From: a virus
DNA length: 56,953 nt
IMG/VR virus record: IMGVR_UViG_3300031746_000022
Location: 1-56,953 of that record
Reading direction: 5' to 3' (one strand)
The stretch's first letter is position 1, and the number at the start of each line of letters is the position of its first letter. Under the pieces are notes generated by a model. The model saw nothing but the letters and a program-made list of their open reading frames with translations. It did not search any database and had not been told where the DNA came from. This document shows, piece by piece, positions 519 through 53,395 of the stretch. Position numbers and translations under genes: made by a program.

Positions 519-2351
519 TTAGTTAGCTGATTGTCCAGAATTTATTATTTTAATAGGTTTTATAGGTGTTGTTAATTTTGTTCCAGATTTTCCAATGGCG
601 GGCGAGGTCGTCACTTCAGGTATGGGTTCTGGTTCGGGAGGCGGCGGAACGATTGCTTGTATTAAAACTGGCACAATTGCGCTGGCGATTTGATTACCAG
701 ATCTCATAATAGCGGGATGAATGAATATTTCGGACGGTATAACAAGAGGAAGTTCTTCTGGCAATATAGGAATATTAGAGTCCGTTATTAATTTTGGTCG
801 TATCGGTTCGGCAAGCCCTATGCCGGAATCCATTAAATGCGGAGGATTAACTATTAACTTATCTCCTAAATAATTTACGATATAAGCATTTGTTATAGAT
901 ATTCCGTTTATGGTGGCTGAAATAGTAAGAAAACCATTAAGATTAGCCATCATATTTGCTTCGCCATTGGATATGGAGAATAATGGACCATTACCTCCTA
1001 ATAATCCAAACGCGGTTGCTGCAGAAGATATTTGTGCCGTAATGAATGCGTCACCAGTTATAGATGCATTTGAAATAGATGTATTCTCTACCGTTGCGCT
1101 TATATCAATGAAACCTGTTATTGATACCGATGTAGTTGCAGCATTTGTCACTTGAGCTGCAAGATCACCTATACCTACTAATGTTGCGCTAATGGTTGAA
1201 CTTCCAGATGATAATGATGATGTGCTTATACTTATAATAAACGAAGCGTCTGAGGTACCATTTATTGTGCTTGCGATGTCGCCTGTACCATAAACATTAG
1301 CTTCGATAGCAGAAGCGCTTGCAATAATACTTGCAACTGCGCCAGCGCCAAATAAATTAGCAGATACGGTTGATGATGATGTAACTATAGCGGTTGAAGC
1401 CGGTGTAGCGAGGACAGTTGATGTACCTGTGATCGTGCTTGCAATCGCTCCGGCTCCAAGAATATTTGCGGCGACAGTTGCGGTACCAGCAATTGAGCTG
1501 GAGAAAATTCCGTTGCCAAGAAGAGTCGCGGCAGTCGTAGCAGTTCCAGGAATGGTTGAAGCAAAAGAGCCAGATCCTAATAAGGCTGCGGCGACAGTTG
1601 TAACACCACTTATCGTAGCATTAATAGCATTGGTAAGATCGGCTGTAGTCGTAGAGATACCGGCGATAGTACTAGCAATGTTTCCAGTACCAAGAAGATT
1701 TTCTGTTGTAGTAGAAGTGCCAGCAATGGTGCTTGTGACAAGACCTCTGCCAAGTAAATTAGCGGTAGTCGTAGCTGCGGACGCGGACGTTGCCGATATT
1801 GCTCCAGCTCCCAAGGCAGCCGCAGTAATTGTTGATACTCCAGAAATAGTGCTAGTAATATTTCCGGTTGCAAGTAAGTTAGCGGTAATGGTCGCAGAAC
1901 TATTTATTGTAGCCGCAATACTTCCTGGATCAGCAACATCAGCAAGATCTGCTGTTATTATGGCTGATCCGGAAATTATACTTGTTATAGCGCCATTACC
2001 AAATAGATCGGCAGAGATAGAAGCCGCGCTCGCAATAGTACTTGCAAAGGTGCCGGAGCCAAGTAAATTGGCGGTTGTAGCGGATGCGTTAGCAACAACG
2101 CTTGCGACATCGCCTGCTCCCAATAAATTTGCGGAGGCTGTCGAAACGTTTGTAATTGTTGAGGCAACTGAACCAGATCCATTTATATTGGCGGTAATCG
2201 TAGATGAACCGGCGATGACACACGCCATCGCACCAGTACCTTTTATGCTGGTGGCATCAGAAGTAGCAATACCATTGATTGTAGCGCTTATTTGCGTTAC
2301 ATCATTATTAAGAAAGGTATATAAGCTAAACGAACCAAGACCACCCGGCAT
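519..2351 (-). CDS. Repetitive tail-fibre/adhesin-like protein (about 20-residue repeats)
   Basis: 610 residues. Residues about 20-475 are roughly 22 imperfect copies of a 20-residue unit whose core reads ANLLGxGxIASTIxGxST, with alternating small/hydroxyl and hydrophobic residues, the pattern of a beta-solenoid or fibrous shaft. The C-terminal 120 residues are different: three copies of a motif like PAIxxSGxxLxxPIxP separated by Pro-rich linkers (PPPPEPEPIPE). No signal peptide is visible. The ATG at 2351 has AGGAG four bases upstream. It sits among virion fibre genes in the same direction, so a virion-surface shaft or receptor-binding role is likely, but no enzymatic or binding domain can be named. 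Internal repeats make copy number prone to slippage. Confidence 0.75.
   Translation of the reverse strand: MPGGLGSFSLYTFLNNDVTQISATINGIATSDATSIKGTGAMACVIAGSSTITANINGSGSVASTITNVSTASANLLGAGDVASVVANASATTANLLGSGTFASTIASAASISADLFGNGAITSIISGSAIITADLADVADPGSIAATINSSATITANLLATGNITSTISGVSTITAAALGAGAISATSASAATTTANLLGRGLVTSTIAGTSTTTENLLGTGNIASTIAGISTTTADLTNAINATISGVTTVAAALLGSGSFASTIPGTATTAATLLGNGIFSSSIAGTATVAANILGAGAIASTITGTSTVLATPASTAIVTSSSTVSANLFGAGAVASIIASASAIEANVYGTGDIASTINGTSDASFIISISTSSLSSGSSTISATLVGIGDLAAQVTNAATTSVSITGFIDISATVENTSISNASITGDAFITAQISSAATAFGLLGGNGPLFSISNGEANMMANLNGFLTISATINGISITNAYIVNYLGDKLIVNPPHLMDSGIGLAEPIRPKLITDSNIPILPEELPLVIPSEIFIHPAIMRSGNQIASAIVPVLIQAIVPPPPEPEPIPEVTTSPAIGKSGTKLTTPIKPIKIINSGQSAN
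929..2296 (-). repeat. Array of ~60-bp coding repeats
   Basis: The segment encoding residues ~20-475 of the fibre-like protein is built of about 22 diverged units of nearly 60 bp, each giving one 20-residue protein repeat. Several units are 3-6 bases shorter or longer, so the array is in frame but not perfectly periodic. On the opposite strand the same periodicity creates a long meaningless open frame. Confidence 0.75.
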
Positions 2352-2401
2352 ACTACTCCTTTATTATTGTTTAAGAAGCCAATCGTACCCCAGGCATCTC
2401 C

Positions 2402-3061
2402 TTACTCTAAATCCAATTCTATTTCATTCCAACAAGCATATGGCGTAAATAATGGTGCTGTTCCAATAGCATAAACAACTATTCCTAATCCCTGTCCTGG
2501 TGGTAATATAATACGACCCCTTACATCATAATTAATTGCTGCACAATTAAGTGCGGTTATATTTGCTCCATCAAATTGAGCAACCTGAAACCACCTAGCA
2601 TTAGTTGCTGGAGTTGTAATTGCAGCGCCGGTCTTAACGATAGCCTTACTATTAGGTCCGCCATTTGATGCATTTGTAACGACCATACCTGCATTATTTG
2701 CTCCGGTTAAAGCTGGAGATTGAAAAATACATGCCGCAACAGTAAATCCACGAGAGGCTGTTAAGACTCCGGAAACAAGAACGGCTCCAAGATGATCGAA
2801 CACATAAGATTTGGTTGCATCGCCATTCCATATTGTCCAATTTGGAGTTAAAACTGCCAAAGCTCCAAGAGGAGCTAATCCGGTAACTGCCGCGTTGCGT
2901 CCTAAAAAGAATCTTTTTCCTGCTCGGGTCATTTCTGTACCTTCAGATTCAACGCAAGTCACAGCTAAACTTTCAAGTCCAGTAGCTCTGATATTGATTG
3001 CAGATAATCCAGATTTACCAATTATAAACCTGCGAACTTTTGCTAAAATTTCCATTCCCAT
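2402..3061 (-). CDS. Tandem structural paralogue 4 of 4
   Basis: 219 residues, the most downstream of four adjacent homologous genes. The shared framework is an N-terminus MGMEILAKVRRF, a central RATGLESLAV and EMTRAGKRFFLGRNAA stretch, a WTIWN/SYVFDHLGA core, and a C-terminal ILPPGQGLGIVVY followed by WNEIELDLE. It is beta-rich, has no signal peptide or membrane segment, and its only Cys residues are in variable positions. The start at 3061 has AAAGGAA upstream and lies 12 bases after the preceding copy. The position in a fibre cluster suggests a virion protein, possibly alternative subunits of a head or tail surface structure. The family is not one I can name. Confidence 0.75.
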   Translation of the reverse strand: MGMEILAKVRRFIIGKSGLSAINIRATGLESLAVTCVESEGTEMTRAGKRFFLGRNAAVTGLAPLGALAVLTPNWTIWNGDATKSYVFDHLGAVLVSGVLTASRGFTVAACIFQSPALTGANNAGMVVTNASNGGPNSKAIVKTGAAITTPATNARWFQVAQFDGANITALNCAAINYDVRGRIILPPGQGLGIVVYAIGTAPLFTPYACWNEIELDLE

Positions 3062-3072
3062 AGTTTATTCCT

Positions 3073-3738
3073 TTATTCTAAATCTAGATCCAATTCGGAC
3101 CACATTGCTACTGGTGTAAATAATGGAGTTGCCGTTGGCGTTGCATAAACAACTATTCCAAGACCTTGACCTGGTGGAACGATTATGCGACCTCTAAGAT
3201 CATAATTGATACAAGCGATTGTAAAAGCAACCGTATTTGTAGTTTCACTTCTAGCAACTGTAAACCAAGTTGGAGCGGCTGGAGTCGTAATAGTTACGCC
3301 AGTTTTAATTATTGCTTTGCTTGTATAACTTCCGGCGGAACAACTTTGCACGACCGTGCCTGCAACGCTTGGAGCACCAACTTGTGCGGGCGCCTGAAAG
3401 ATGCAGGCATCTACTATAATACCACCAGGAGCCGTTAAAGCGCCGGTACTTGTCATTATAGCTCCGATATGATCAAAAACATATGATCTGCTCGTATCAT
3501 TATTCCAAATAACCCACTGTGGCGCAGTTGTTACTTGAGTTGCTGTAGAAACAATTCCGGTCGTCGCGGCATTTTGTCCTAAAAAGAATCTTCTTCCAGC
3601 TCTAGTTATTTCTGTATGCTCTGGTTCAACGACCGCGATAGCAAGACTTTCTGTACCGGTTGCACGAAGTGAAGTTAAAGATAGTCCGGCTTTGCTTATC
3701 ACAAATCTCCGAACTTTTGCTAACATTTCTATTGCCAT
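3073..3738 (-). CDS. Tandem structural paralogue 3 of 4
   Basis: 221 residues, homologous along its full length to its three neighbours. It begins MAIEMLAKVRRFVISKAGL, keeps the RATGTESLAI and EITRAGRRFFLGQNAA blocks and ends in a W-S-E-L-D-L-D-L-E tail where the sister genes have WNEIELDLE. It differs mostly in the middle third (residues 90-150), where the sisters also diverge, suggesting an exposed variable region on a common scaffold. GGAG upstream supports the ATG at 3738. Three bases separate it from the gene upstream, so the four are probably translated from one message. Function is not assignable beyond probable virion protein. Confidence 0.75.
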   Translation of the reverse strand: MAIEMLAKVRRFVISKAGLSLTSLRATGTESLAIAVVEPEHTEITRAGRRFFLGQNAATTGIVSTATQVTTAPQWVIWNNDTSRSYVFDHIGAIMTSTGALTAPGGIIVDACIFQAPAQVGAPSVAGTVVQSCSAGSYTSKAIIKTGVTITTPAAPTWFTVARSETTNTVAFTIACINYDLRGRIIVPPGQGLGIVVYATPTATPLFTPVAMWSELDLDLE

Positions 3739-3741
3739 TGA

Positions 3742-4419
3742 TTACTCCAAATCCAATTCTATTTCTTGCCAGACTGCATGTGGAACAAATAATGGAGTAC
3801 CAGTCGCAGTAGTATAAACATTAATTGCAAGCCCCCATTGAGGAGGAAGAATTAAACATCCCTCCAAATCTTCATTTATAGCGGCAATAGTTGGATTTGT
3901 GGTAACGCCAATATTAGCCCCATCACTCTTGGTGACGGTATAATAAACTGGCGCTGCGGGAGTAGTTATTGTCAATGCTGTAGCTTGTGATTGTACAATT
4001 GCTTTGCTTGCCGGACCACCATTTGACAATGATGTAACTACCATATTTGCTGTATTAGCTCCAACACGAGCGGGCGCTTGAAAAAATGCAGCCTGAACTA
4101 TAATTCCAGATCCTGCCGTAAGAACGCCTGAAGTAATCATTGCTCCAAGCTCAGAAAAAACATATGCTTTTGATGAATCATTATTCCAAATTGACCATTG
4201 TGGCACCGTAGTAACTTGGGCAACAACAGAAACGCGTCCGGTGGTCGCTCCGGCAACAGATACGGTATAGCTTCTTCCGGCTCTAGTAATTTCACTATGA
4301 TATAGATCTACTTGCGCGACAGCTAAACTTTCTGCTCCAGTTGCACGAGCAACGATTGGTGACATTCCGGCTTTACCTGCCACGAAACGTCTAATTTTTG
4401 CGATTATTTCTACGCCCAT
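3742..4419 (-). CDS. Tandem structural paralogue 2 of 4
   Basis: 225 residues and the most divergent of the four copies. The N-terminal AKIRRFVAGKAGM and RATGAESLAV blocks are kept, but the strongly conserved RRFFLGxNAA becomes RSYTVSVAGA and the C-terminal RGRIxxPPGQGLG becomes EGCLILPPQWGLA. The terminal WQEIELDLE is preserved, so that end is likely structural or an interaction tail. GGAG precedes the ATG at 4419, with four bases between it and the preceding gene. It could be a specialised member, for example occupying a different symmetry position; that is inference. Confidence 0.75.
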   Translation of the reverse strand: MGVEIIAKIRRFVAGKAGMSPIVARATGAESLAVAQVDLYHSEITRAGRSYTVSVAGATTGRVSVVAQVTTVPQWSIWNNDSSKAYVFSELGAMITSGVLTAGSGIIVQAAFFQAPARVGANTANMVVTSLSNGGPASKAIVQSQATALTITTPAAPVYYTVTKSDGANIGVTTNPTIAAINEDLEGCLILPPQWGLAINVYTTATGTPLFVPHAVWQEIELDLE

Positions 4420-4423
4420 TGTA

Positions 4424-5077
4424 TTACTCCAAATCCAATTCTATTTCATTCCAACAAGCGGTTGGAGCGAATAATGGAGATGTGCCAGTTCCTGAATATA
4501 CGGCTAAGCCTAATCCTTGTCCTGGTGGAATGACGATACGACCTCTAAGATCATAGTTTGCCATAGAAACTGAAAGTGCTGCGGTGTTAGTAGAATCTGT
4601 TTTGGCTACCGTAAACCATACCGGAGCCGTAGGTCCAGTTATGGTAACGTTCGTTGTAACGATGGCGCGGCTCGAAGGTCCTCCGTTAGAGGCAGATGCC
4701 ACGCTCATGCCCGTCGCGCTCGACCCAGAACTTACTGGAGCTTGAAATAGGCAGGCATCAAGTATCGCGCCGGCAGCTGCCACTCCTGAAACGAGAACGG
4801 CTCCAAGATGGTCAATGACATATGATTTATTTGAATCGGCATTCCAAATAACCCATTGAGCGGCAGTTGTTACTTGAGCGGCAACAGGGGCAATTCCAGT
4901 GACAGCCGCATTTCTTCCTAAAAAGAATCGTCTTCCAGCACGAGTCATTTCTGTGCCCTCAGATTCTACCATAGCAACGGCAAGACTTTCTGTTGCGGTA
5001 GCACGAACTGTAATTGGAGATACTCCCGCTTTGCCAACAACAAAACGACGTATCTTTGCGATCATTTCCATTCCCAT
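4424..5077 (-). CDS. Tandem structural paralogue 1 of 4
   Basis: 217 residues, the first translated copy of the array. It is closest to paralogue 4: both have GTEMTRAGxRFFLGRNAA, the DHLGAVLVSG core and the full WNEIELDLE tail. The start at 5077 has AGGAG well placed. The close similarity of the two outer copies, with more divergent copies between them, suggests successive duplications and not one simple event. It follows a small acidic-tailed protein by 15 bases. Predicted all-beta virion component; no catalytic motif is visible. Confidence 0.75.
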   Translation of the reverse strand: MGMEMIAKIRRFVVGKAGVSPITVRATATESLAVAMVESEGTEMTRAGRRFFLGRNAAVTGIAPVAAQVTTAAQWVIWNADSNKSYVIDHLGAVLVSGVAAAGAILDACLFQAPVSSGSSATGMSVASASNGGPSSRAIVTTNVTITGPTAPVWFTVAKTDSTNTAALSVSMANYDLRGRIVIPPGQGLGLAVYSGTGTSPLFAPTACWNEIELDLE

Positions 5078-7525: not shown

Positions 7526-8260
7526 TTATTTATTTCCTTTTAATAAATTTGCTTTTGATGAAAGTGGTTGTAAATTACTTAACTTCCAACATTCTATAAA
7601 TTTAGAATCACTCATAGAGTTATATATAAATCTTGATTGTGGTATAATATGATCTAACTGCCAAGTCCAAGTGGCCGGCTCGCTATCATTCCATTTATGA
7701 AGTCTATATGACCCGTAATTATCCCAATTCATCCACGGCTCAAATAATAATTCTAAATGTTTACATAATTCAATAAAAGAATATGGCAAATATCTAAAAA
7801 TAGATTGATTATTTTTTCTTGCGCCATTTTTATGTAATGCTTTATTAATCCCGCCAGATATTTGATTTCGTAACCTAAATACAGGATCTATTATATATCT
7901 ATTAGCAGCATATTTATTATTATTTTCTATAATAATTTCTTTATTATTAATATACCATTGTTGAGATTGCTGACTTTTCTTATCTTTATTAAGAATATAA
8001 TATTCTTTATCATATTCTTTTTTATGAATTGTATTTTTAATATACCAAGATTTGGCTCTTTCTAAATTTGGGAGTGGATTATTTTTATAATTTTTTTTTG
8101 TTTTATTTAAAATTTCTTGTCGATGTAATATATAATATTGTTTTTTGTATTCTTTAATACAAGGCTTACATCTATTCATTTTACCATCTTTTGATGATTT
8201 ATCGCAACTAAATTGAATAATTAATTTTTCTTGCTGACAAGAGCTGCAAATCTTACTCAT
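7526..8260 (-). CDS. HNH homing endonuclease with N-terminal zinc finger
   Basis: 244 residues. The N-terminus holds a four-Cys zinc-binding set (CSSCQQEK about residues 5-8 and CKPCIKEY about 32-35). The middle is a Lys/Tyr/Asn-rich repetitive linker (repeats like YKKQYYILHRQE, IKNTIHKKEYDKEYYI). The C-terminus carries the HNH nuclease: WQLDHIIPQSRF and later LSNLQPLSSKANLLKG, with His-Asp-His and Asn in the usual places. Free-standing genes of this type spread by cutting phage DNA lacking them. It is more AT-rich than the fibre genes around it, which fits recent insertion between them. Confidence 0.85.
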   Translation of the reverse strand: MSKICSSCQQEKLIIQFSCDKSSKDGKMNRCKPCIKEYKKQYYILHRQEILNKTKKNYKNNPLPNLERAKSWYIKNTIHKKEYDKEYYILNKDKKSQQSQQWYINNKEIIIENNNKYAANRYIIDPVFRLRNQISGGINKALHKNGARKNNQSIFRYLPYSFIELCKHLELLFEPWMNWDNYGSYRLHKWNDSEPATWTWQLDHIIPQSRFIYNSMSDSKFIECWKLSNLQPLSSKANLLKGNK

Positions 8261-18624: not shown

Positions 18625-19289
18625 TAGGTAATTACTCTCGTTCTAGATGATTCAAATGGAGAGCTTCCATTATAAGCAAATGTATCCGTTACCGTCGCCA
18701 ATAAAATACCGCCTTCGTCATAAACTTTCCAGACAGTTACGGTTATTCTTTTATTAGCATCATATGATAAGTTCTTCTCCACAATTTTAAGTGATTTAGA
18801 GCTTGAATCCCACCAGGTAATAGATGTCGGAAAAGGATTATCTAATGGCAATGTTTCCCTGTAGGCTCCAGAAGCAAAACCCTCTAGTGGTCCGCCAACT
18901 CCATCTGCTAAATGGATCAGCTGTCTCAACGTTTCGTGTTGAGTTTCTGTTATTCCAGATCCTATTGCAGTTACTTCAAGACCATCTGTAATTCCGGCTT
19001 GCATTAAAAATGTTTTTTGAGTATCATTAAATTGTAATAGATCGATATCGCTACAAATAACTCTAATTTCTTGTGCTCTCAATTTATTTCTTAATGTTCC
19101 TTTAAGAAGGGAAGCTCTAATTTCCGCTTCATCAATGCCTGGGATACGTAACAAATCTCTTGTCGTGCCAACGGGGATTGGATAATCAAATATACGAATT
19201 GTTTTATTACTATTTGTAATCACATTCATCACAATAAAACAACCATTAATTGGATCATTAAAAGGATATTGTGTAGCTGAGTCGGTCAT
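18624..19289 (-). CDS. Adaptor/connector-like virion protein
   Basis: 221 residues. The first half contains RIFDYPIPVGTTRDLLRIPG and a helical EAEIRASLLKGTLRNKLRA stretch. The second half has the pattern PFPTSITWWDSSSKSLKIVE, then WKVYDEGGILLATVTDTF and ends FESSRTRVIT. This two-part pattern is common at the start of tail-fibre operons in several phages, usually annotated as a virion structural protein. Its ATG overlaps the stop of the HNH gene (ATGA), which suggests the endonuclease inserted cleanly in front of it. Confidence 0.6.
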   Translation of the reverse strand: MTDSATQYPFNDPINGCFIVMNVITNSNKTIRIFDYPIPVGTTRDLLRIPGIDEAEIRASLLKGTLRNKLRAQEIRVICSDIDLLQFNDTQKTFLMQAGITDGLEVTAIGSGITETQHETLRQLIHLADGVGGPLEGFASGAYRETLPLDNPFPTSITWWDSSSKSLKIVEKNLSYDANKRITVTVWKVYDEGGILLATVTDTFAYNGSSPFESSRTRVIT

Positions 19290-19918
19290 TTGTTACCTAA
19301 TAATCTAATAAAATCTTCTGGTAATTTATCACTTTTACGCATATTACACGAGGCGCAAGAAGGTCTTACATTTGCTAACGAATGCATTCCGCCTTTTGAT
19401 AAAGGAATGTAATGATCTATATGTTCGAATTTTCCGAATTCACAATAAAAACAACTACTACCATATCTATTAATAATATCTATTTTTTCAAATTTTTCTA
19501 CTGTAACACCTTTTTTTAATAATTTTCGCCTTTTAACAGCCATTAATTTGCTATCTTTATTATTTACTTGATATTCTTTTACTCTATTTTTTATTTCTTC
19601 TTTATTTTTTTGATAATATATAGCGGATCGAATTGCATGTGCTTCTTTATTATCATCATAATATTGTTTTTGTTCAATTGATAATTCTTCTTTGTTATTT
19701 TGATAATATTTAGCTTTATTTAATTTTAATTCTTCTTTATTTATTGTTCTGTATTCTTTTTGATATTTTTTATATTCAATAATTTTATTGTCTTGTTTTT
19801 TTTTAGCACATACTTTACAATACACGGCGCGGCCGCATTTTGTTGCGTTATTTTTATGAAATTCACTAAATTCTTTAATGTTACCACAATCCGGACATTT
19901 TTTAACTAAATTAGTCAT
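19286..19918 (-). CDS. HNH endonuclease with N-terminal zinc ribbon
   Basis: 210 residues. N-terminal zinc set CPDCGNIKEF and CKVCAKKK; a Lys/Tyr/Asn-rich linker built of repeats like YYQNNKEELSIEQKQYYDDN; and a C-terminal HNH nuclease domain with FYCEFGKFEHIDHYIPLSKG then ANVRPSCASCNMRKSDK, i.e. paired CxxC and the His-Asp-His...Asn core of the McrA-type fold. Free-standing homing endonuclease or restriction-like nuclease. AAGGCAG upstream supports the ATG. Architecture parallels the gene at 8260-7526, but the HNH cores are of different subtypes. Confidence 0.87.
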   Translation of the reverse strand: MTNLVKKCPDCGNIKEFSEFHKNNATKCGRAVYCKVCAKKKQDNKIIEYKKYQKEYRTINKEELKLNKAKYYQNNKEELSIEQKQYYDDNKEAHAIRSAIYYQKNKEEIKNRVKEYQVNNKDSKLMAVKRRKLLKKGVTVEKFEKIDIINRYGSSCFYCEFGKFEHIDHYIPLSKGGMHSLANVRPSCASCNMRKSDKLPEDFIRLLGNK

Positions 19919-20660: not shown

Positions 20661-21155
20661 ATGAAATTTCTTGATTTAATTCTCAATTCTTTCAAAATAC
20701 AAGTAAAATGTCCTATTTGTAATGAAAAATTGATACGAAAATTTCAAACATCTTTCAAAGGAGCGCAATCATCGTCGGTATTTGCGAACTTTCCCGATAA
20801 ACCAGAATATGATTCTATGATTTTTACTAAAGAAATTGGTTCTAATATGAATACTATTGCTGTACCGTCGATATGCGACTTGTTGCAACAATCTCCTCCC
20901 AGCATTCATTTTATGGAAATCGATCATACTTATGTCATTTGTCCCAAAACACATTATTATTTATGGTTTGACGGTAATACATTTGCACCTTCTTCGGAAC
21001 GTTTTATCGTACAAAATCTTGATATTATAATAAAATCTGCAGAAATTCAAGAATTAGGAACTCAATTGCGAATGCCAACTTCTCGTAATTATATATTGGC
21101 TTGTACGCCAGAAGAGATTATAAATAAAGTTCAGAAAGTGATAATGTTACAATGA
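20661..21155 (+). CDS. Zinc-ribbon-start protein of rightward cassette
   Basis: 164 residues. A single N-terminal CPICNEKL pair could be half of a zinc site; a second pair is not obvious later (one C at CPKTHYYLWF). The rest is mixed alpha/beta with a strand-rich centre (FMEIDHTYVICP) and helical C-terminus. It overlaps the RNase HII start by four bases (ATGA), so the two are co-translated. Role unknown; it may be a cassette-specific adaptor. Confidence 0.55.
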   Translation: MKFLDLILNSFKIQVKCPICNEKLIRKFQTSFKGAQSSSVFANFPDKPEYDSMIFTKEIGSNMNTIAVPSICDLLQQSPPSIHFMEIDHTYVICPKTHYYLWFDGNTFAPSSERFIVQNLDIIIKSAEIQELGTQLRMPTSRNYILACTPEEIINKVQKVIMLQ

Positions 21156-21745
21156 CACATATAATAGGTATAGATGAGGTCGGAACGGGCGCTTGGGCTG
21201 GACCAATTATTATAGGTGGCGTACGTGCTCCTATTAATTGGACTATGCCTGGCTTAAAAGATTCTAAAAAACTTACCAGAGAAACACGAGCCGAACTAAC
21301 CCAACAACTTCACCAACAGCGAGACCAAGGTATTATAGATTTTACAACCTCTATGTCACCTAATGATGAAATAGATAAGTTAGGATTAGGCGTTGTAGCA
21401 AAAATGTGCTATACTACGGCTATTTCTCGTTTATATAAAGATACAGATCAAGTTATTTTGGATGGTAATCTTAATCCTAAACATTTATTAAAATATGGAT
21501 TAAGTATTAATATGGAAAATATGAAGTCTGTAGTTAAAGCAGATGATAAATATCCGGTTGTAATGGCAGCTTCAATTATTGCTAAATATTATCGTGATGA
21601 ATTAATGATTACTTTGGGGCACGGATTTAACCCAGAATATGGTTGGGATAAAAACGTAGGCTATATTGTACCAGATCATAAAGATGCTGTTAGAAAATAT
21701 GGACTATCTTCAATGCATCGTAAAAGCTATAATGTAAAACTATAA
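21152..21745 (+). CDS. rnhB: Ribonuclease HII
   Basis: 197 residues, the normal length of this enzyme. The N-terminal IGIDEVGTGAWAGP carries the catalytic Asp8-Glu9 pair; DSKKLT follows at about 37-42; VILDGN gives Asp104; and KADDKYPVVMAASIIAKYYRD ends in the fourth acidic residue (Asp149). RNase HII cuts the RNA strand of RNA-DNA hybrids and single ribonucleotides in DNA, in the cytoplasm with Mg2+ or Mn2+. In a phage it may remove replication primers or R-loops. It overlaps the gene before it (ATGA) and precedes a small frameshifted gene. Confidence 0.92.
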   Translation: MTHIIGIDEVGTGAWAGPIIIGGVRAPINWTMPGLKDSKKLTRETRAELTQQLHQQRDQGIIDFTTSMSPNDEIDKLGLGVVAKMCYTTAISRLYKDTDQVILDGNLNPKHLLKYGLSINMENMKSVVKADDKYPVVMAASIIAKYYRDELMITLGHGFNPEYGWDKNVGYIVPDHKDAVRKYGLSSMHRKSYNVKL

Positions 21746-21768
21746 TTATCGTATAATGATAGGTAATA

Positions 21769-21940
21769 ATGTTTAATAAATTAATTTACATTTGAAGAAT
21801 TACGTACTCATTCTAAAAGATTTTGGATTAAAATTCATCATCTTATAAGAGATGGTAAATCTGAACAATATCGAAAATTACAATTGGCTGGAGTTAGAGC
21901 GCGTTATATATTAGAACCTTTAGCGATACTAGAAAAATAA
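21769..21940 (+). pseudogene. Small gene broken by +1 frameshift
   Basis: An ATG at 21769 gives MFNKLIYI and stops, but one base out of frame a coherent frame runs to a TAA at 21940, reading FEELRTHSKRFWIKIHHL, then IRDGKSEQYRKLQL and ending LAILEK. Removing one T in the run near 21788-21792 joins them as MFNKLI + T + FEELRTHSKR. The product would be about 56 residues, helical and basic. It is either a real frameshift, a programmed slip, or a sequencing/assembly error. It lies in the rightward cassette between RNase HII and the methyltransferase. Confidence 0.5.
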
Positions 21941-21967
21941 ATCAATTAAATTGCATAATTTAGAGTT

Positions 21968-22825
21968 ATGCGTTCATTACTTTTATCAATACTAGCGGAT
22001 AGCTTTTTATTTAAAACGGCCAAACCATCGTTTAAATATCAAGAATTTGATGATGGTCTCGTTATTAATGGTGATTGTACCGACCCGGATGTTTTTGCTT
22101 TTGTACAAAAATACTTAAAAGGTAAAAGTAAAAAAATACAATTGATGCATACCGATCCTCCTTATTTTGTGCTTGATAAAACATTTCAAGGCAAAGATAC
22201 TTCGTGGGATCAAACAAAAATGTCACAAGAACAAACGTCTGATTGGATGAAGTCTTGGGTCAAATTATGGCTTCCATTAATGTATCCGGGTGCCGCTCTT
22301 TATATTTGGGGTGGAACGGGTGTACCGGCATTCAGACCTTTCTTTGTATTTTGCTCTGATATCGAACACGAGCCAGATGTACAGCTAACTATTGCAAACT
22401 ATATTACTTGGAATAAAAGACGAGCGTTTGGTACAAAGAAAAATTACCTCTATACAAGAGAAGAATGTGTTTATCTTGTTAATGCGCCCGATAATAGTCC
22501 GAGAGTATTTAATATTCCACTAACAGATAAATTGCGTGGCTACGAGGGATTTAATGCTAAATATAAAGCAAAAAGCCCATATCTTCGTAGAACGAATGTA
22601 TGGACAGTTACAGAATTGTTTCAAGGTAAAATACATCCAACAGAAAAGCCCGTAACACTATTAAAAATTCCAATTAATACTTCTTCTAAAAAGAATGATT
22701 ATGTATTGGATTTATTTGGCGGTTCGGGATCGACGGCTTCAGCTGCACGCGAATGTGGTAGAAATTTTATCTTGATTGAAAAAGATCCTACTTATTACAA
22801 AAATATATTAAAAAGATTAAAATGA
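21968..22825 (+). CDS. DNA methyltransferase (beta-class, N4-cytosine/N6-adenine)
   Basis: 285 residues. The catalytic motif IV TDPPYF lies at residues 62-67 and the AdoMet-binding motif I DLFGGSGST at about 248-256, after it, which is the order of beta-class amino-methyltransferases (N6_N4_Mtase family). HPTEKPVTLL is the typical motif just before motif I. It transfers a methyl group from S-adenosylmethionine to adenine N6 or cytosine N4 in DNA. No restriction gene is adjacent, so it is an orphan, probably for protecting phage DNA. Target sequence cannot be read from here. The 3' end overlaps the next gene by ATGA. Confidence 0.9.
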   Translation: MRSLLLSILADSFLFKTAKPSFKYQEFDDGLVINGDCTDPDVFAFVQKYLKGKSKKIQLMHTDPPYFVLDKTFQGKDTSWDQTKMSQEQTSDWMKSWVKLWLPLMYPGAALYIWGGTGVPAFRPFFVFCSDIEHEPDVQLTIANYITWNKRRAFGTKKNYLYTREECVYLVNAPDNSPRVFNIPLTDKLRGYEGFNAKYKAKSPYLRRTNVWTVTELFQGKIHPTEKPVTLLKIPINTSSKKNDYVLDLFGGSGSTASAARECGRNFILIEKDPTYYKNILKRLK

Positions 22826-25900: not shown

Positions 25901-27244
25901 CTAAAACAGAATTCCATCATCTTCTTCTGGGGGCAAACGTGCCTTTTCTAATCGGTGCCTTTGATTCATGATTTCTCGTTCGGAGGCGCCTCCGGCGATT
26001 TCCTCCAATCTTCTGTTTTTAGGGATTTTATTTTTTCTTTCCTGTTTTAGTCTTTGTAGTTCGTCGGCCATTTCATCTGAAAATGCTCCAGGATTATTTT
26101 CTACCATCGTATTAAATGAATGACGATCTTGTTCATATTCTTTTTCAAATACTTCAAAATCTTCTTCGGTCCACCAAAAGCTTTCATTAGGAAATAAGTC
26201 TTTCCAGGTAATGCCATCAATAGTAACTTTCGTCTGCCCATCTTCGCTTACAGCATATGGTCTGCCAAAATTACCAAAATCTGCAGGAGGATCTCCTACA
26301 TATTCTATAATAAAATTACGAGCCTCTACCGGATTAGTAAATGATTTGCTAAATCCTGTCATCCTATGATCGCGCGCGGACGGATCGCTTTGATTAATAT
26401 TAACAAGAATACCATCCAAATTTTTTCTTTCAGGATTTGTTAATAAAATGATCTTATAAGCTTCATTAATTTTGGATTGTATAGCAGGATCGCCTCCCAC
26501 ATCTGGATGGTGTTTTTTACTTAATGCTTTATATTTCTGTCTAATATCTTCTAATTTATCATTCTCTTCTATTCCAAGAATTTTTCGTGCTTCTAAAGAT
26601 GATAATTCAGAGGCTAATTTATAAAATGTATTAGACCATTTTAATAAATTACTTATCATATTACTATTGGCTTTTTTTATTTCTTTAAGATATTCTGGCG
26701 GAATAATACCATTTTTAGTATGAATGCTGATATGTGGAACGTCTGGAGCATACAGCCCCCGATCATCAATATCATTGTATAATTTCCATAATTCTTTAGC
26801 TGACATTGCTAAATATTGTTTTAATTCCTTATTAGATAAATAATGATGCCTTTCACCATCTTGCATACCTTCTTGATATGGTTTTAATTCCATTCCAAAA
26901 ATGGAAATATCTGGATGATCTGCTAATAGTTGGGTAAGATTAATTTTTATAGGAATTAATTTATTTTTAAAAACTGGATGTTTTTTTGATACCATATTTA
27001 AATTTGGTATTAATTGAAATACTGCATTGGGTCCAAGTACGGCTGGACGAGAAAAATTATCTTTGAGAGCTTTATTTATTTTATTTTTTAATTTCGTAGA
27101 AGATATGTTTCTACTTTTAGCGGCTAATTCTAATAAATCAGGACGATTTAAAAGAGCCTTGCCGCTATATAATCCGTCATCCATAATGGATTGTATGGCA
27201 TCACGAGATACATAACTATAAACAAAAATATCCCATTTAGCCAT
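25901..27244 (-). CDS. Possible ADP-ribosyltransferase-like domain fused to a DnaJ J-domain
   Basis: 447 residues in three parts. Residues ~1-190 have the pattern FVYSYVSRDAIQSIMDDGLY at the start and HISIHTKNGIIPPEYLKEI at the end, the N- and C-terminal marks I associate with ADP-ribosyltransferase/RNA 2'-phosphotransferase folds (h-Y-s, sI..GL, then IPPEYI). Residues ~203-215 carry a NLLKWSNTFYKLAS tag. Residues ~217-268 are a J-domain with the HPD tripeptide (KHHPDVGGD), which stimulates Hsp70/DnaK ATPase. The rest is acidic and helical. The J-domain is reasonably firm; the ART assignment is tentative. Possibly a virion-delivered effector acting on host chaperones or targets. Confidence 0.7.
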   Translation of the reverse strand: MAKWDIFVYSYVSRDAIQSIMDDGLYSGKALLNRPDLLELAAKSRNISSTKLKNKINKALKDNFSRPAVLGPNAVFQLIPNLNMVSKKHPVFKNKLIPIKINLTQLLADHPDISIFGMELKPYQEGMQDGERHHYLSNKELKQYLAMSAKELWKLYNDIDDRGLYAPDVPHISIHTKNGIIPPEYLKEIKKANSNMISNLLKWSNTFYKLASELSSLEARKILGIEENDKLEDIRQKYKALSKKHHPDVGGDPAIQSKINEAYKIILLTNPERKNLDGILVNINQSDPSARDHRMTGFSKSFTNPVEARNFIIEYVGDPPADFGNFGRPYAVSEDGQTKVTIDGITWKDLFPNESFWWTEEDFEVFEKEYEQDRHSFNTMVENNPGAFSDEMADELQRLKQERKNKIPKNRRLEEIAGGASEREIMNQRHRLEKARLPPEEDDGILF

Positions 27245-43269: not shown

Positions 43270-43902
43270 TTAATGCCTTGACTCGTCTCGCATTTTCACA
43301 CGATCTTCAACTAATTGCATTACAAGTGGCGATTTTTTTTCTACTTTTTCTTGTAATTCATTACTTATACTATCAACCCAATTTCTTGCCAAAATGTTAG
43401 TTTGTAAATGGTTTTTAACTCTTTCATTAACAATTTGTTCTAATTGAACTATTTCTTTTTTAATATTATCAATGGCTGTAATTACGCCTTTAGAGAAATC
43501 TTCTGATTGTAAATTGTCAAACAAATCTACAAATCTATTTACCTGAATTTCAATATCTTCAATAGAAGCAACAAATGATTTTAATAATTTTTCAGTTTGT
43601 GTATCAGATGTAAAAGGCTGCATTATAACATAGGCTTTAAAGGCTGCTTTTTTAAATTTATTAAAATTATTAACAACCTTATCTCTATAACGACGTAACA
43701 TAGCACGATGTTTAAAAATTACTTCTGGAGTAGTATCTGGGCTTTTCTTAAATGGATTATAAATAAGATTTAAATGTTTATCGCATTGTTCTACAATCTT
43801 TAAACAATGATTAAACCATCGCATAGCTTTTTCGGCTCGCTCTTTTTCACTATCAGAAATCTGATACGTCAGCATTGAATTATAGGCTTGTTTTTTAAAC
43901 AT
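43270..43902 (-). CDS. Coiled-coil protein
   Basis: 210 residues, almost all helix: EKERAEKAMRWFNHCLKIVE, KHRAMLRRYRDKVVNNFNKF, VITAIDNIKKEIVQLEQIV. Starts by stop-start overlap with the phosphatase-like gene (GGAGGA site). Could be a scaffold helper or adaptor. No family recognised. Confidence 0.6.
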   Translation of the reverse strand: MFKKQAYNSMLTYQISDSEKERAEKAMRWFNHCLKIVEQCDKHLNLIYNPFKKSPDTTPEVIFKHRAMLRRYRDKVVNNFNKFKKAAFKAYVIMQPFTSDTQTEKLLKSFVASIEDIEIQVNRFVDLFDNLQSEDFSKGVITAIDNIKKEIVQLEQIVNERVKNHLQTNILARNWVDSISNELQEKVEKKSPLVMQLVEDRVKMRDESRH

Positions 43903-44663
43903 TATACAAATCCTCCGCCTATTACCGATGGTCCAACCATATTAGTTATTTGCGTATTCTGATCAAAAACGCCAACTGCTGGAATTTGAGTAGATTTCAT
44001 CTCTTCATCATTAATGTCTTTTAAGCCGTAATTCTCTCTGGTCTGTTCTGGATTATCAGTATAATAAGTATCGGTAAAAGCTAATGGATATGTTCTAATA
44101 GTGGGGTCCGCATAAGGAGCCCAAGACCCTCTTTCTTGCGTATCAAGAGTATAATCTCTTGATGTTTCATTTCCATCGTGCGTATTAGTTACAATATCAT
44201 AAGCATTATTGGTATCAATATTTTTATCTGCTTGACAAATAAGTTTTATAAAAAATTTTTCCATCTTGTTATCAATACGCATTCCAAAACCCAAATGTTT
44301 GGCTTCTTTAATTGCTTTTTTACAATTCCATTTATCTAATAAGCATCTCACTAATCCAATAAATAAGCCAGTACGATCTTTGCCGTGAAGACAATGCACA
44401 AAAGTTGGAACTTTCTCATCTATTAAATTATAGATATTATGTTTTAATAAATATTTAACACTATTTTTATCGTGACAATTAAGTGGAATTATTATTTGCT
44501 CAATATCTAATTTTTTACAAAGTGGTTTAATAAATTCTCCCGCTTGCTCGTCAAGTGAAATAATTTTTTTAATATTAAACTTTTTCTTCAAGGCAACAAT
44601 ATCCGATAAAGAGGGCTTGCCCCCTCTAAAAAGATTAGTTTTAACTTGATGAAAATTTTTCAT
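43902..44663 (-). CDS. Tyrosine/dual-specificity phosphatase-like protein
   Basis: 253 residues. Residues ~1-125 are a compact phosphatase fold: NLFRGGKPSLSDIVALKKK, IKKIISLDEQAG and the P-loop FVHCLHGKDRTGLFIG, in which Cys91, Arg97 and Thr98 match the HCxxGxxR(S/T)G signature. The remaining 125 residues are unrelated and end in Gly-rich VGPSVIGGGFV, like a virion tail. These enzymes hydrolyse phosphate esters of tyrosine, serine or RNA/nucleotide substrates. Placed between portal and protease genes; a virion-carried effector role is possible. Confidence 0.82.
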   Translation of the reverse strand: MKNFHQVKTNLFRGGKPSLSDIVALKKKFNIKKIISLDEQAGEFIKPLCKKLDIEQIIIPLNCHDKNSVKYLLKHNIYNLIDEKVPTFVHCLHGKDRTGLFIGLVRCLLDKWNCKKAIKEAKHLGFGMRIDNKMEKFFIKLICQADKNIDTNNAYDIVTNTHDGNETSRDYTLDTQERGSWAPYADPTIRTYPLAFTDTYYTDNPEQTRENYGLKDINDEEMKSTQIPAVGVFDQNTQITNMVGPSVIGGGFV

Positions 44664-50411: not shown

Positions 50412-53318
50412 TTATCTAGAAGAATAAACAGCCATCACTGATGCTTGTTTTTTCTTTCCAATATCATTTTGTAATAAAGAATTTCTTACTTGAAAACCTT
50501 GAGATAAAAAGAACTTATATGCTATATAAGCATTTAATAAAGCCATAAATCCATCATTTACGCCTGCTTTAATATAGTGAGGAGTCACTTCTCCGGTTCG
50601 CGAAAGGCTTGGTTTAATTTCCATATTAGCACAATGCTGAATGAGCCAAGCTATTTGTTCATAACTGCCCAGCGGAAATCTAATTAAACCTTGCTTCATC
50701 TGCTCATATAATTCCATAATCCAAAAATCTCTTTCAAATGTAATAACTTTAGGAAAGATATCTGCATTATATTTAACTTTTTCTGTAACTCTACCTGCTG
50801 CCTGAGAGGCAAGAAATTTATCACCATATTCTGTTTGCATAATTTCATTAAAATCGTGCGCATATCCAATATCGCAAACTGCTAATTTGCATTTATATCT
50901 TTTCATTTCTTCATCTAAAACGCTTTTTTTACTCGCTAAATCATTTCTTTTAAATTTAAAAGCGTGTTCAATAGATAATTTTCCGGGACCCGTAAGGGAT
51001 AAAACTACCGCAGTGCTATAACTTTGTCCCTGTCCTCTAATTTTATCAGAATTAACCAACTGTTCCAGATCGGCTTTAGCGCCGATATCTATTCCAAGAA
51101 ATGTGATAACTTCTTCGCCTGGAGCGACAGCCCCTCTAAATTTTCTTTCTGGATCGCCACATTTGATGCGAATTTCTTCTGGAGTAATAATTCCAGCTTC
51201 ACCTTGAAAAAATTCTCCCAAAATTTCATTTTGATACGATCGCTCGGTGTTAATTGCCGAATTACCTGGCTTCTTATCCATAATCTGTTCTTTGGTAAAT
51301 TCTGGCAAATATAATTGATTTAAATGAAATCCAACGAATTTTGCCTCTGCTGGATCTTTTAATGGAATCCATTTGCCGCGATCAATGGCTTGTAACCGAT
51401 CTTGTTCATAATTACAATGAGTGCATTTAACTATATTTCCATAAATCCAAATAGATTCCCAATCATTAGATCCAGGCGTATAAAGGGGGAAAGTTTTTTT
51501 ACATTGCTCGCAGCCTAAATGATAAAATTGTTGCGAAGACTGTTGCCATAAATGCCAAAATTCAGAGCCCCGTTGCAATGGTGTGCCAAAAAATACCTGC
51601 ACGCCTTCGCCAAGCATTCCATATTGTGCTTTAGTTAAAACTTTTGTTGAATTAGATAATGCCGCTGGCGGCATTTCTTGACAATTATGAACTATTGGTC
51701 CGCCACTATTCTTACTTCTTCTCGAAGGAGCAATAACAAAATTATGATTATCTGCAATTTCAATATCATAAACATTTTCCAATGTATTACATAGTTCAAT
51801 ACTATCTACTACTGTAAAATTATATGATTTATAATCATTATTCCATATATAGTCACTATTAATATAGTTACTTACTTTATATGATAAATTTTTATGAATA
51901 TATGGTCGTATAATATTGCATAATTCGCTAAATCCTTTTTTATTAAAAAATAGTGAAAAATATTTTTTATTATTTGAAGCCTTATATAATTTATAATGAC
52001 ACTCAATACCTAATGATCTAAATTTTTCAACAAATCTTATGTGACTATCTTCATCAAAGGAGTTTGTAGATATGCATCCGCTAGACCCAGTATTCCAAGT
52101 ATTTCTATTACCATCATCCATAAACCATATTGCTATCCCGCGAGCGTCTAAATTATCTAAAATCCATTGAGGACAAGTAGTTTTAGTAAGAGGTAATTCT
52201 TCTTGTAATCCAAATGTTTTGGTGCAAAATTTAATTGCTTCTTTATTAGAATAACCATTTTTTTGTATTTTTATAGTTTTACAATTAAATTGTTCAGCTT
52301 TCCATTGACAATATTCTGTTTGTTTTATATCATGTATAATATTTAATCTATATCTATTATTTTTATAGGTGGATAAATGACCATCTCCAAGAAATGATCC
52401 TAAAATAATTTGCATTTGATCATCATTAACCGCTCGAATACAAAGATTAGTTCCATTTGATGTTTTTAATAAAGTTCCGACAGTTAAATTATTAGCTTCT
52501 TTCCAACCATTTTCAGTTAGAAACCTATGATTTGGAGTACATTTAATTATTTTATTACCACATATTATTTTTAATAATTGCCTTTCTCCCTTGTTCCAAG
52601 CATTTGTTATTTTTTTATATTCAAAAAGTTCAGTATTTTCATTAAATGATTTAATAAGGGGGGTTGTTTTTCCTAAAAGGAAATTATCATATAATTTTCC
52701 TATTTTTTCTTTTCCATCAGTAGTTTCAACATACTGATCATATGGAAAACATTCATCAAAGAACATAACATCAGCCGTTTTTCCACGTAATCTGGAACCC
52801 TCTAAACCAACCGACTCAATCCATAAATGATTACCACCAATAAATTGTTTAAATCCCATATTATCATTTGCTTGTGATGAAGTATCAATCAATGACTTCA
52901 TATATGGTTTTTGTCCTTTTTTACCATTAGTAAGATTAACTAAAATGGAGGACTCAATCATAGAGGCTAATTTTGTTTTTGAATATGCTGCTGCACGATC
53001 CAAAGTGGGCCAATTATGAATAATTCTCATAGGAGGATTATTAGCCGTGCCAAATAATCCAGAACCCATAAAATACATCTCTAATGCAGATGCAGTCGTT
53101 GTTCCGGCAACCTGGCGCGCCTTAACCCATACTACTGGCTTACCATCTCTATCTAACGCTTTAACACCTATGTATCTAAAAATATCAACTAACGGCTTAT
53201 AGCCGCTGGCGGTTAATCTAAATGGCTTACCATCAAGAGTTAAATATTTTTCTGACCACGCAACTGGATCCATAGCTAATAATGAATCTCGTATCTTATT
53301 GAATATTTGGTCTGACAT
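50412..53318 (-). CDS. terL: Terminase large subunit with intein
   Basis: 968 residues as translated from the ATG at 53318; an upstream in-frame GTG (53348) lacks support. The extein (612 residues) has a Walker A-like KARQVAGTTTAS, Walker B VMFFDE, a zinc-ribbon set (HLGCEQCKKTF, then KCTHCNYEQ) like GpA-type terminases, and nuclease Asp residues in FLGIDIGAKAD and AVCDIGYAHDF. It translocates DNA into proheads and cuts it. The sequence is interrupted between FFDE and CQEM by a 356-residue intein. Splicing must occur for packaging function. Confidence 0.93.
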   Translation of the reverse strand: MSDQIFNKIRDSLLAMDPVAWSEKYLTLDGKPFRLTASGYKPLVDIFRYIGVKALDRDGKPVVWVKARQVAGTTTASALEMYFMGSGLFGTANNPPMRIIHNWPTLDRAAAYSKTKLASMIESSILVNLTNGKKGQKPYMKSLIDTSSQANDNMGFKQFIGGNHLWIESVGLEGSRLRGKTADVMFFDECFPYDQYVETTDGKEKIGKLYDNFLLGKTTPLIKSFNENTELFEYKKITNAWNKGERQLLKIICGNKIIKCTPNHRFLTENGWKEANNLTVGTLLKTSNGTNLCIRAVNDDQMQIILGSFLGDGHLSTYKNNRYRLNIIHDIKQTEYCQWKAEQFNCKTIKIQKNGYSNKEAIKFCTKTFGLQEELPLTKTTCPQWILDNLDARGIAIWFMDDGNRNTWNTGSSGCISTNSFDEDSHIRFVEKFRSLGIECHYKLYKASNNKKYFSLFFNKKGFSELCNIIRPYIHKNLSYKVSNYINSDYIWNNDYKSYNFTVVDSIELCNTLENVYDIEIADNHNFVIAPSRRSKNSGGPIVHNCQEMPPAALSNSTKVLTKAQYGMLGEGVQVFFGTPLQRGSEFWHLWQQSSQQFYHLGCEQCKKTFPLYTPGSNDWESIWIYGNIVKCTHCNYEQDRLQAIDRGKWIPLKDPAEAKFVGFHLNQLYLPEFTKEQIMDKKPGNSAINTERSYQNEILGEFFQGEAGIITPEEIRIKCGDPERKFRGAVAPGEEVITFLGIDIGAKADLEQLVNSDKIRGQGQSYSTAVVLSLTGPGKLSIEHAFKFKRNDLASKKSVLDEEMKRYKCKLAVCDIGYAHDFNEIMQTEYGDKFLASQAAGRVTEKVKYNADIFPKVITFERDFWIMELYEQMKQGLIRFPLGSYEQIAWLIQHCANMEIKPSLSRTGEVTPHYIKAGVNDGFMALLNAYIAYKFFLSQGFQVRNSLLQNDIGKKKQASVMAVYSSR
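51684..52751 (-). mobile_element. LAGLIDADG intein in terminase
   Basis: A 356-residue in-frame insert. It begins with Cys (CFPYDQYVETTDGKEK, block A), has a block B-like CTPNHRFLTENGW, two LAGLIDADG-type helices (GSFLGDGHLS and AIWFMDDGNRN), and ends with block F/G VYDIEIADNHNFVIA then PIVHN followed by extein Cys. His-Asn plus Cys+1 are the residues needed for splicing. It is inserted directly after the catalytic Glu of Walker B, a highly conserved site. Confidence 0.9.
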
Positions 53319-53395
53319 ATAATGGCTTATTAAAAATAATTTTCTCACAAATTTAGGTTTGCAAGTTTTATGTTATAACTGTAATTGTAGTAAAA

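Follow-up and report, generated by a model that had tools for sequence, protein, structure and literature searches.

Inteins are usually regarded as bound to one codon position of one gene. In the viral DNA analysed here (the window: positions 1 to 56,953 of IMG/VR virus record IMGVR_UViG_3300031746_000022, 56,953 bases), the gene for the large terminase carries an insert directly behind the catalytic Walker B glutamate, which a sequence-only reading had taken for an intein. What is this insert, and how might it have come to sit at the active site of a DNA-packaging enzyme?

The interrupted terminase gene and its surroundings

The ORF finder reports a single minus-strand frame with a GTG start (50412-53348), which encodes a large terminase (TerL) split by an insert and which stays open across the whole precursor, insert included (Table 1). 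In this one ORF, Pfam recognises GpA_ATPase (PF05876, 5e-9), Intein_splicing (2.8e-13) and LAGLIDADG_2 (PF03161, 4.6e-17), and for the C-extein the PHROG match is terminase large subunit (PHROG 675, 7.1e-35). Because a PDB sequence search with an intein-free TerL gave nothing meaningful, a fold search was used. The model of the terminase of relative L005 (pLDDT 84) matches the terminases of T4 (gp17), D6E, HK97, Sf6 and P74-26 as well as TerL nuclease domains. Thus, PF05876, PHROG 675 and the TerL fold, including the nuclease domain in the L005 model, place the enzyme among the GpA-type large terminases.

A start at the GTG at 53348 was judged unlikely, since in relative L002 an in-frame stop lies shortly upstream of the ATG matching 53318. 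Provided that translation starts at this ATG, the spliced product of 612 residues given in the sequence-only reading is correct.

A portal protein gene lies downstream of terL. Many TerL relatives are on contigs of 200–450 kb, and the window is therefore likely a piece of a large phage; one relative, L113, is on a 383-kb contig binned as Chitinophagales. The phage collection, searched for a near DNA relative of the window, held none.

Elsewhere in the window, two free-standing HNH-type genes, at 19286-19918 (minus strand; HNH, 3.7e-9) and 7526-8260 (minus strand; weak), are possible stand-alone homing endonucleases. At 2402-5077 (minus strand), four paralogues of about 220 aa lie in tandem, with whole-length similarity by eye, and a tyrosine phosphatase family protein (5.8e-14) is encoded at 43902-44663 (minus strand), near the head genes. 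A DnaJ-domain protein is encoded at 25901-27244 (minus strand); an RNase HII gene and, after it, a DNA methylase lie on the opposite strand, at 21152-22825 (plus strand).

Table 1. Coordinates of terL, its intein and the associated motifs in the window (the caret marks an insertion point or splice junction)
Feature	Position	Strand	Basis or remark
terL, large terminase precursor	50412..53318	-	968 aa from ATG; 978 aa with GTG at 53348
N-extein, ATPase domain as far as the Walker B Glu	52752..53318	-	
Empty RGK^TADV site	52778..52779	-	class 3 intein here in relatives
Walker B, VMFFDE; intein directly behind Glu	52752..52769	-	D188/E189 invariant in 31 empty TerLs
Class 1 intein, 356 aa	51684..52751	-	motifs, AlphaFold, Foldseek
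Splicing block A, Cys1 first	52713..52751	-	C1 invariant
Splicing block B, TPNH	52518..52559	-	T72, H75 invariant
LAGLIDADG endonuclease domain	51837..52454	-	about intein residues 100-305; PF03161 4.6e-17, Foldseek
First LAGLIDADG motif, LGSFLGDG (Asp123)	52380..52409	-	alignment, AlphaFold
Second LAGLIDADG motif, IAIWFMDDG (Asp212/213)	52110..52136	-	alignment, AlphaFold
Splicing block F, VYDIEIADNHNFVI	51732..51773	-	D329, H336, N337, F338 invariant
Splicing block G, GGPIVHN	51684..51704	-	H355 (penultimate) and N356 (terminal) invariant
C-extein: Cys+1 (CQEM...) first, remaining ATPase and nuclease domain	50412..51683	-	

Splicing motifs and fold of the insert

The boundaries, which had been placed after FFDE and before CQEM, are exact to the codon: on the minus strand the Cys1 codon starts at 52751, the Asn356 codon ends at 51684 and the Cys+1 codon starts at 51683, and TerL reads FFDE^C...VHN^CQEM across the insert. 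The motifs listed in the earlier reading are likewise all in place, namely block A (CFPYDQYVETTDG), block B (CTPNHRFL, in which T72-P-N-H75 fits TxxH), block F (VYDIEIADNHNF), block G (GGPIVHN^C at the junction) and two LAGLIDADG helices. Across 32 relatives the catalytic residues of these blocks and of both LAGLIDADG motifs are invariant or nearly so, the junction residues Cys1, His355 and Asn356 being invariant.

The insert thus carries the full set of class 1 features: Cys1, TxxH, Asp329 and His336 of block F, His355, Asn356, Cys+1, a HINT fold and homologues that lack the intein. Class 3 was ruled out, as Cys1 is present and the WCT set is absent; no Trp follows the block B His, and an Asp stands where class 3 inteins have the block F Cys. 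The AlphaFold model (mean pLDDT 94.1, pTM 0.90) finds its best PDB matches by Foldseek in the endonuclease-bearing inteins TliVMA, PI-PfuI and PI-SceI, and its splicing part superposes on mini-inteins with an rmsd of about 1.6–2.5 across about 100 residues. By its motifs and predicted fold, the insert belongs to the canonical class 1 inteins and contains a two-motif LAGLIDADG endonuclease, and Pfam, the fold comparison and the class 1 residues agree in this with the identity first proposed.

The Walker B site in intein-free relatives

Asp188, Glu189 and Gln191 are invariant in 31 intein-free TerLs. In the L005 model the Asp ends the beta strand of residues 184–188 and the Glu comes next, which bears out the earlier placement of the insert directly behind the catalytic Glu; Walker B is thus cut off from the remainder of the ATPase domain. 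The +1 residue is variable, being Val at 42, Cys at 6, Ile at 5 and Ser at 1 of 54 non-redundant empty sites.

Most of the 80 TerLs scanned are exactly empty at the Walker B codon, as are L004 (DEVQEI), L005 (DECQEI), L006 (DEIQEM) and L008 (DEIQDM). The empty junction is DEC in L005 and in five more TerLs, and these six DECQ sites show that the predicted spliced junction occurs naturally. Other relatives hold an insert of 43–57% identity at the identical codon. Comparison with relatives had been suggested as a way to recognise an ordinary structural domain; with relatives this exactly empty, the intein reading stands. Judged from the sequences, a complete motif set combined with filled and empty relatives at one codon is far beyond chance.

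Judged by its position alone, the insert would, as the sequence-only reading proposed, leave the unspliced precursor unable to hydrolyse ATP, and it is plausible on the same ground that packaging would depend on splicing and might be controlled by it.

Endonuclease domain and predicted activity

The two LAGLIDADG helices span intein residues 110–121 and 203–213; Asp123 is nearly invariant and Asp212 invariant. The middle part of the model superposes on I-SceI and I-WcaI (Foldseek), and the second motif reads WFMDDG, as in I-SceI. Three close pairs of the lineage have dN/dS of about 0.10–0.16, the splicing and endonuclease parts behaving alike, which speaks for retention of both functions in the lineage; these pairs are other members of it, the sole close relative of the window copy being an identical intein in a second record, L001. 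The catalytic residues, the fold, the intein-free relatives and the purifying selection in close pairs suggest, in line with the earlier expectation, that the window intein is probably active, and it is probably mobile still.

Distribution among terminases

Of the 80 nearest TerLs by C-extein, a set picked without regard to the insert, seven have a Walker B intein and seven an insert at RGK^T (several being near-duplicates), with both in a single TerL, about the chance expectation. The tree of 96 TerLs places the window in a supported group of 17 with no other Walker B carrier; L002, its neighbour with a 90% identical terminase, lacks the Walker B intein. The Walker B label requires at least 5 changes on this tree and the class 3 label 9 changes for 9 carriers; shuffled labels do no worse. 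Many of the distant carriers were retrieved using the intein as query, which inflates the apparent prevalence among distant TerLs and accounts for the clustering of these carriers near the root. Of 323 pairs, 213 are more alike in the intein than in the extein, and the two identities are weakly correlated (r = 0.35).

The Walker B site is found in empty, mini and full forms. Mini-inteins of 141–157 aa without an endonuclease occupy it in the TerLs L034, L043, L107, L108, L245 and L251-L256, and the penultimate residue is Ser in the inteins of L196, L198, L199 and L222.

Nine residues upstream of the Walker B intein site, the RGK^T site holds an insert in L002, L007, L012, L024, L043, L077, L107, L195 and L230. 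These inserts carry the class 3 signature, that is, Gln1 or Met1, Trp after the block B His, a block F Cys, a block G Thr and Thr at +1 (W67, C313, T332 and Gln1 at this neighbouring site). Both inteins reside in one TerL, with nine extein residues between them, in L012 (3918-6071), L043, L107, L195 and L230. The class 3 inteins of L002 (1480-2481), L007 (3918-4970), L024 and L077 use GK^T or GR^T ahead of Walker B, and related class 3 inteins in other phages (L263, L264) sit at GK^T-like Walker A sites. Walker A is degenerate in these terminases (for example KARQVAGTT), and the class 3 element at RGK^T may therefore have settled on a Walker A look-alike.

Between the window and L002, identity around 51684/52751 is 0.68 in the 60 bases at the insertion and about 0.8–0.9 nearby. 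The dip could stem from co-conversion or from the class 3 site of L002; since L002 carries an intein itself, at −27, it is not assignable to either.

The same lineage in PhoH, SF1 and SF2 genes

Carriers were collected by an intein-alignment scan, a genome scan and a phage search, and their host families were confirmed by Pfam. Homologous inteins of about 26–56% identity sit directly behind the Walker B or motif II Glu not only of TerLs, but also of PhoH proteins (nine loci: L106, L114, L115, L210, L218, L220, L228, L233, L239), UvrD-like SF1 helicases (six: L017, L234, L235, L237, L240, L243) and SF2 helicases (five: L216, L232, L236, L247, L258). Every copy in the latter three families has DE before it and Cys after it (Ser in L115), followed by Gln or His, and in most PhoH carriers the match to the PhoH profile breaks at position 128. 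Within the lineage, copies from the four host families are 32–56% identical over the whole length, endonuclease included; remote matches below about 30% identity include other sites, such as those in RecA-like proteins and an HTH protein.

In a tree of 43 inteins, the PhoH copy L228 is nested inside the TerL inteins with supports of 99/98 and 100/97, which argues that copies crossed between genes. Supported branches force at least two changes involving PhoH; the deep branches are poorly resolved, and host-gene labels cluster overall (6 changes, against 15.7 for shuffles). L228 and the TerL copy L230 are on one 353,765-base contig and are 51% identical, so that a single virus has the lineage in its PhoH as well as its TerL gene.

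The DNA common to 45 filled sites is GAtGAa^TG.CA. As the TerL and PhoH sites share only about 12 bases with third positions free, which is short for the target of a LAGLIDADG enzyme, moves between genes would be rare or need further similarity. Most intein-free TerLs, having Val at +1, are possibly poor targets. A wider scheme can be offered tentatively, at somewhat less than even odds: a distinct class 1 LAGLIDADG lineage, mainly of large phages, whose endonuclease would read GAY GAR^TGY CAR/CAY, one element being able to invade P-loop NTPase genes of several unrelated kinds, two of them even in the same genome, with Val or Ile at +1 of empty terminases as a resistant allele.

Some further arrangements were seen along the way. 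The PhoH gene of L106 has a class 3-like intein at PG^TKEEK in addition to the Walker B class 1 intein (2262-3296 and 3501-4583). A short helix-turn-helix protein (sigma region 4-like) of L109-L111 (3501-3923) has a mini-intein of the same family at SINGN^CDYRNG, which is not a P-loop site. Of the two Hint-type inserts in a terminase-like protein of L014 (4311-8354), one is at GDE^C; no endonuclease family was recognised.

Discussion

The explanation that we favour, with a probability of about 0.86 on the sequence evidence, is a bifunctional class 1 intein, which would splice itself out to leave FFDE-CQEM, home into Walker B DNA and occasionally land in another gene at the same motif. After translation, Cys1 would attack the Glu-Cys bond, Cys+1 would then accept the chain and Asn356 would cyclise, the TerL halves being ligated as FFDE-CQEM into the 612-aa terminase. 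In co-infecting phages, the LAGLIDADG domain would cut Walker B coding DNA that has no intein, and the repair of the cut would copy the intein into the empty gene. Because GAY GAR^TGY CAR recurs in many P-loop NTPases, copies may occasionally have landed in another gene; because precise excision is needed at a catalytic site to restore function, the intein would be hard to lose.

Sitting at the catalytic Glu, the intein could instead be retained as a switch, slow or conditional splicing delaying DNA packaging until late infection. Proposals of this kind exist for cyanophage Mic1 with its two TerL inteins (PMC7156551) and for mycobacteriophage TerL (PMC5050341), and the persistence of mini-inteins without an endonuclease at the Walker B site of TerLs would fit a switch. 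However, endonuclease decay predicts mini-inteins equally well, most relatives do without the intein, the 90% identical one included, no conserved regulatory feature was found, and mobility alone explains the distribution. We therefore consider a switch unlikely. We are equally doubtful that similar inteins arrived independently at DE^C, under convergent constraints of the host genes and with no movement between them. Unrelated-looking inteins do occur at DE^C, in a helicase of Xanthomonas phage FoX3 and in the L014 TerL, and the labels do cluster by host gene, but the well-supported position of a PhoH copy inside the TerL inteins and the full-length similarity of copies across the four families, endonuclease included, speak against this.

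It is still less probable that the window copy is decaying, splicing poorly or carrying a dead endonuclease. Decayed relatives are known (the mini-inteins and the four with a penultimate Ser), but in the window copy the catalytic residues are all intact and the model is confident throughout; moreover, persistence of the virus needs a working TerL, and an identical copy exists in L001. That the insert is simply a structural domain of the terminase fits the open frame and nothing else; exactly empty relatives, the intein fold and the full splicing motifs led us to rule this out, and we give it next to no weight.

As a single element, the window intein is an ordinary member of its kind, TerL inteins, one of them in Walker B, having already been published. 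Mycobacteriophage TerL has seven intein sites, and TerL1-a to -f (Kelley et al. 2016, PMC5050341) are, like the window intein, located in the ATPase domain of a large terminase; some mycobacteriophage TerL inteins were shown to splice and cut, and horizontal movement between genes was proposed (PMC5050341). TerL1-e, the one in Walker B, is grouped with class 3 (WCT), near DnaB-b (PMC5050341), whereas the window intein is of class 1 with Cys1, the two sites being compared at the level of the motif. Mic1, too, has two inteins in its TerL, one with a homing endonuclease (PMC7156551), as some relatives of the window have two. Those of Mic1 lie in the ATPase and nuclease domains, while in the relatives both are around Walker B, nine extein residues apart. 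TerL inteins are further reported from Campylobacter phage IBB_35, together with PhoH inteins (PMC3322345), from Salmonella phage Marshall (PMC3853055) and from Rak2-like phages (PMC5259590), and a haloarchaeal MCM has an intein four residues past Walker B (PMC3972481).

With the inteins PI-SceI, PI-PfuI and TliVMA and the intron enzyme I-SceI, the window intein shares the two-motif LAGLIDADG endonuclease and, with the inteins among them, the HINT splicing fold; it differs in its host gene, in an identity of just 12–22% and in its smaller size (356 aa). Closer is the intein of a UvrD-like helicase in the gut phage record MT835601.1 (L017), which belongs to the same lineage (33–35% identity at full length; VDE^C...HN^CQD) but sits in an SF1 helicase, in a record that is unannotated. 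The P-loop (GK^T) inteins of many ATPases also target a nucleotide-binding motif common to many proteins; they are, however, in Walker A and mostly of other lineages. For a class 1 intein site at Walker B, only the terminase and MCM papers were found in the openly readable literature. No description of a class 1 lineage common to the Walker B sites of different NTPases was found in openly readable papers, and within these a Walker B-specific class 1 lineage across NTPase families appears to be undescribed.

Recurrence at one catalytic motif in terminases, PhoH, SF1 and SF2 proteins, twice in one virus, makes the entry of inteins into new genes directly testable via two defined target sites. 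Furthermore, with empty, mini and full versions and two intein classes side by side, the site is useful for studying how elements compete at one active site.
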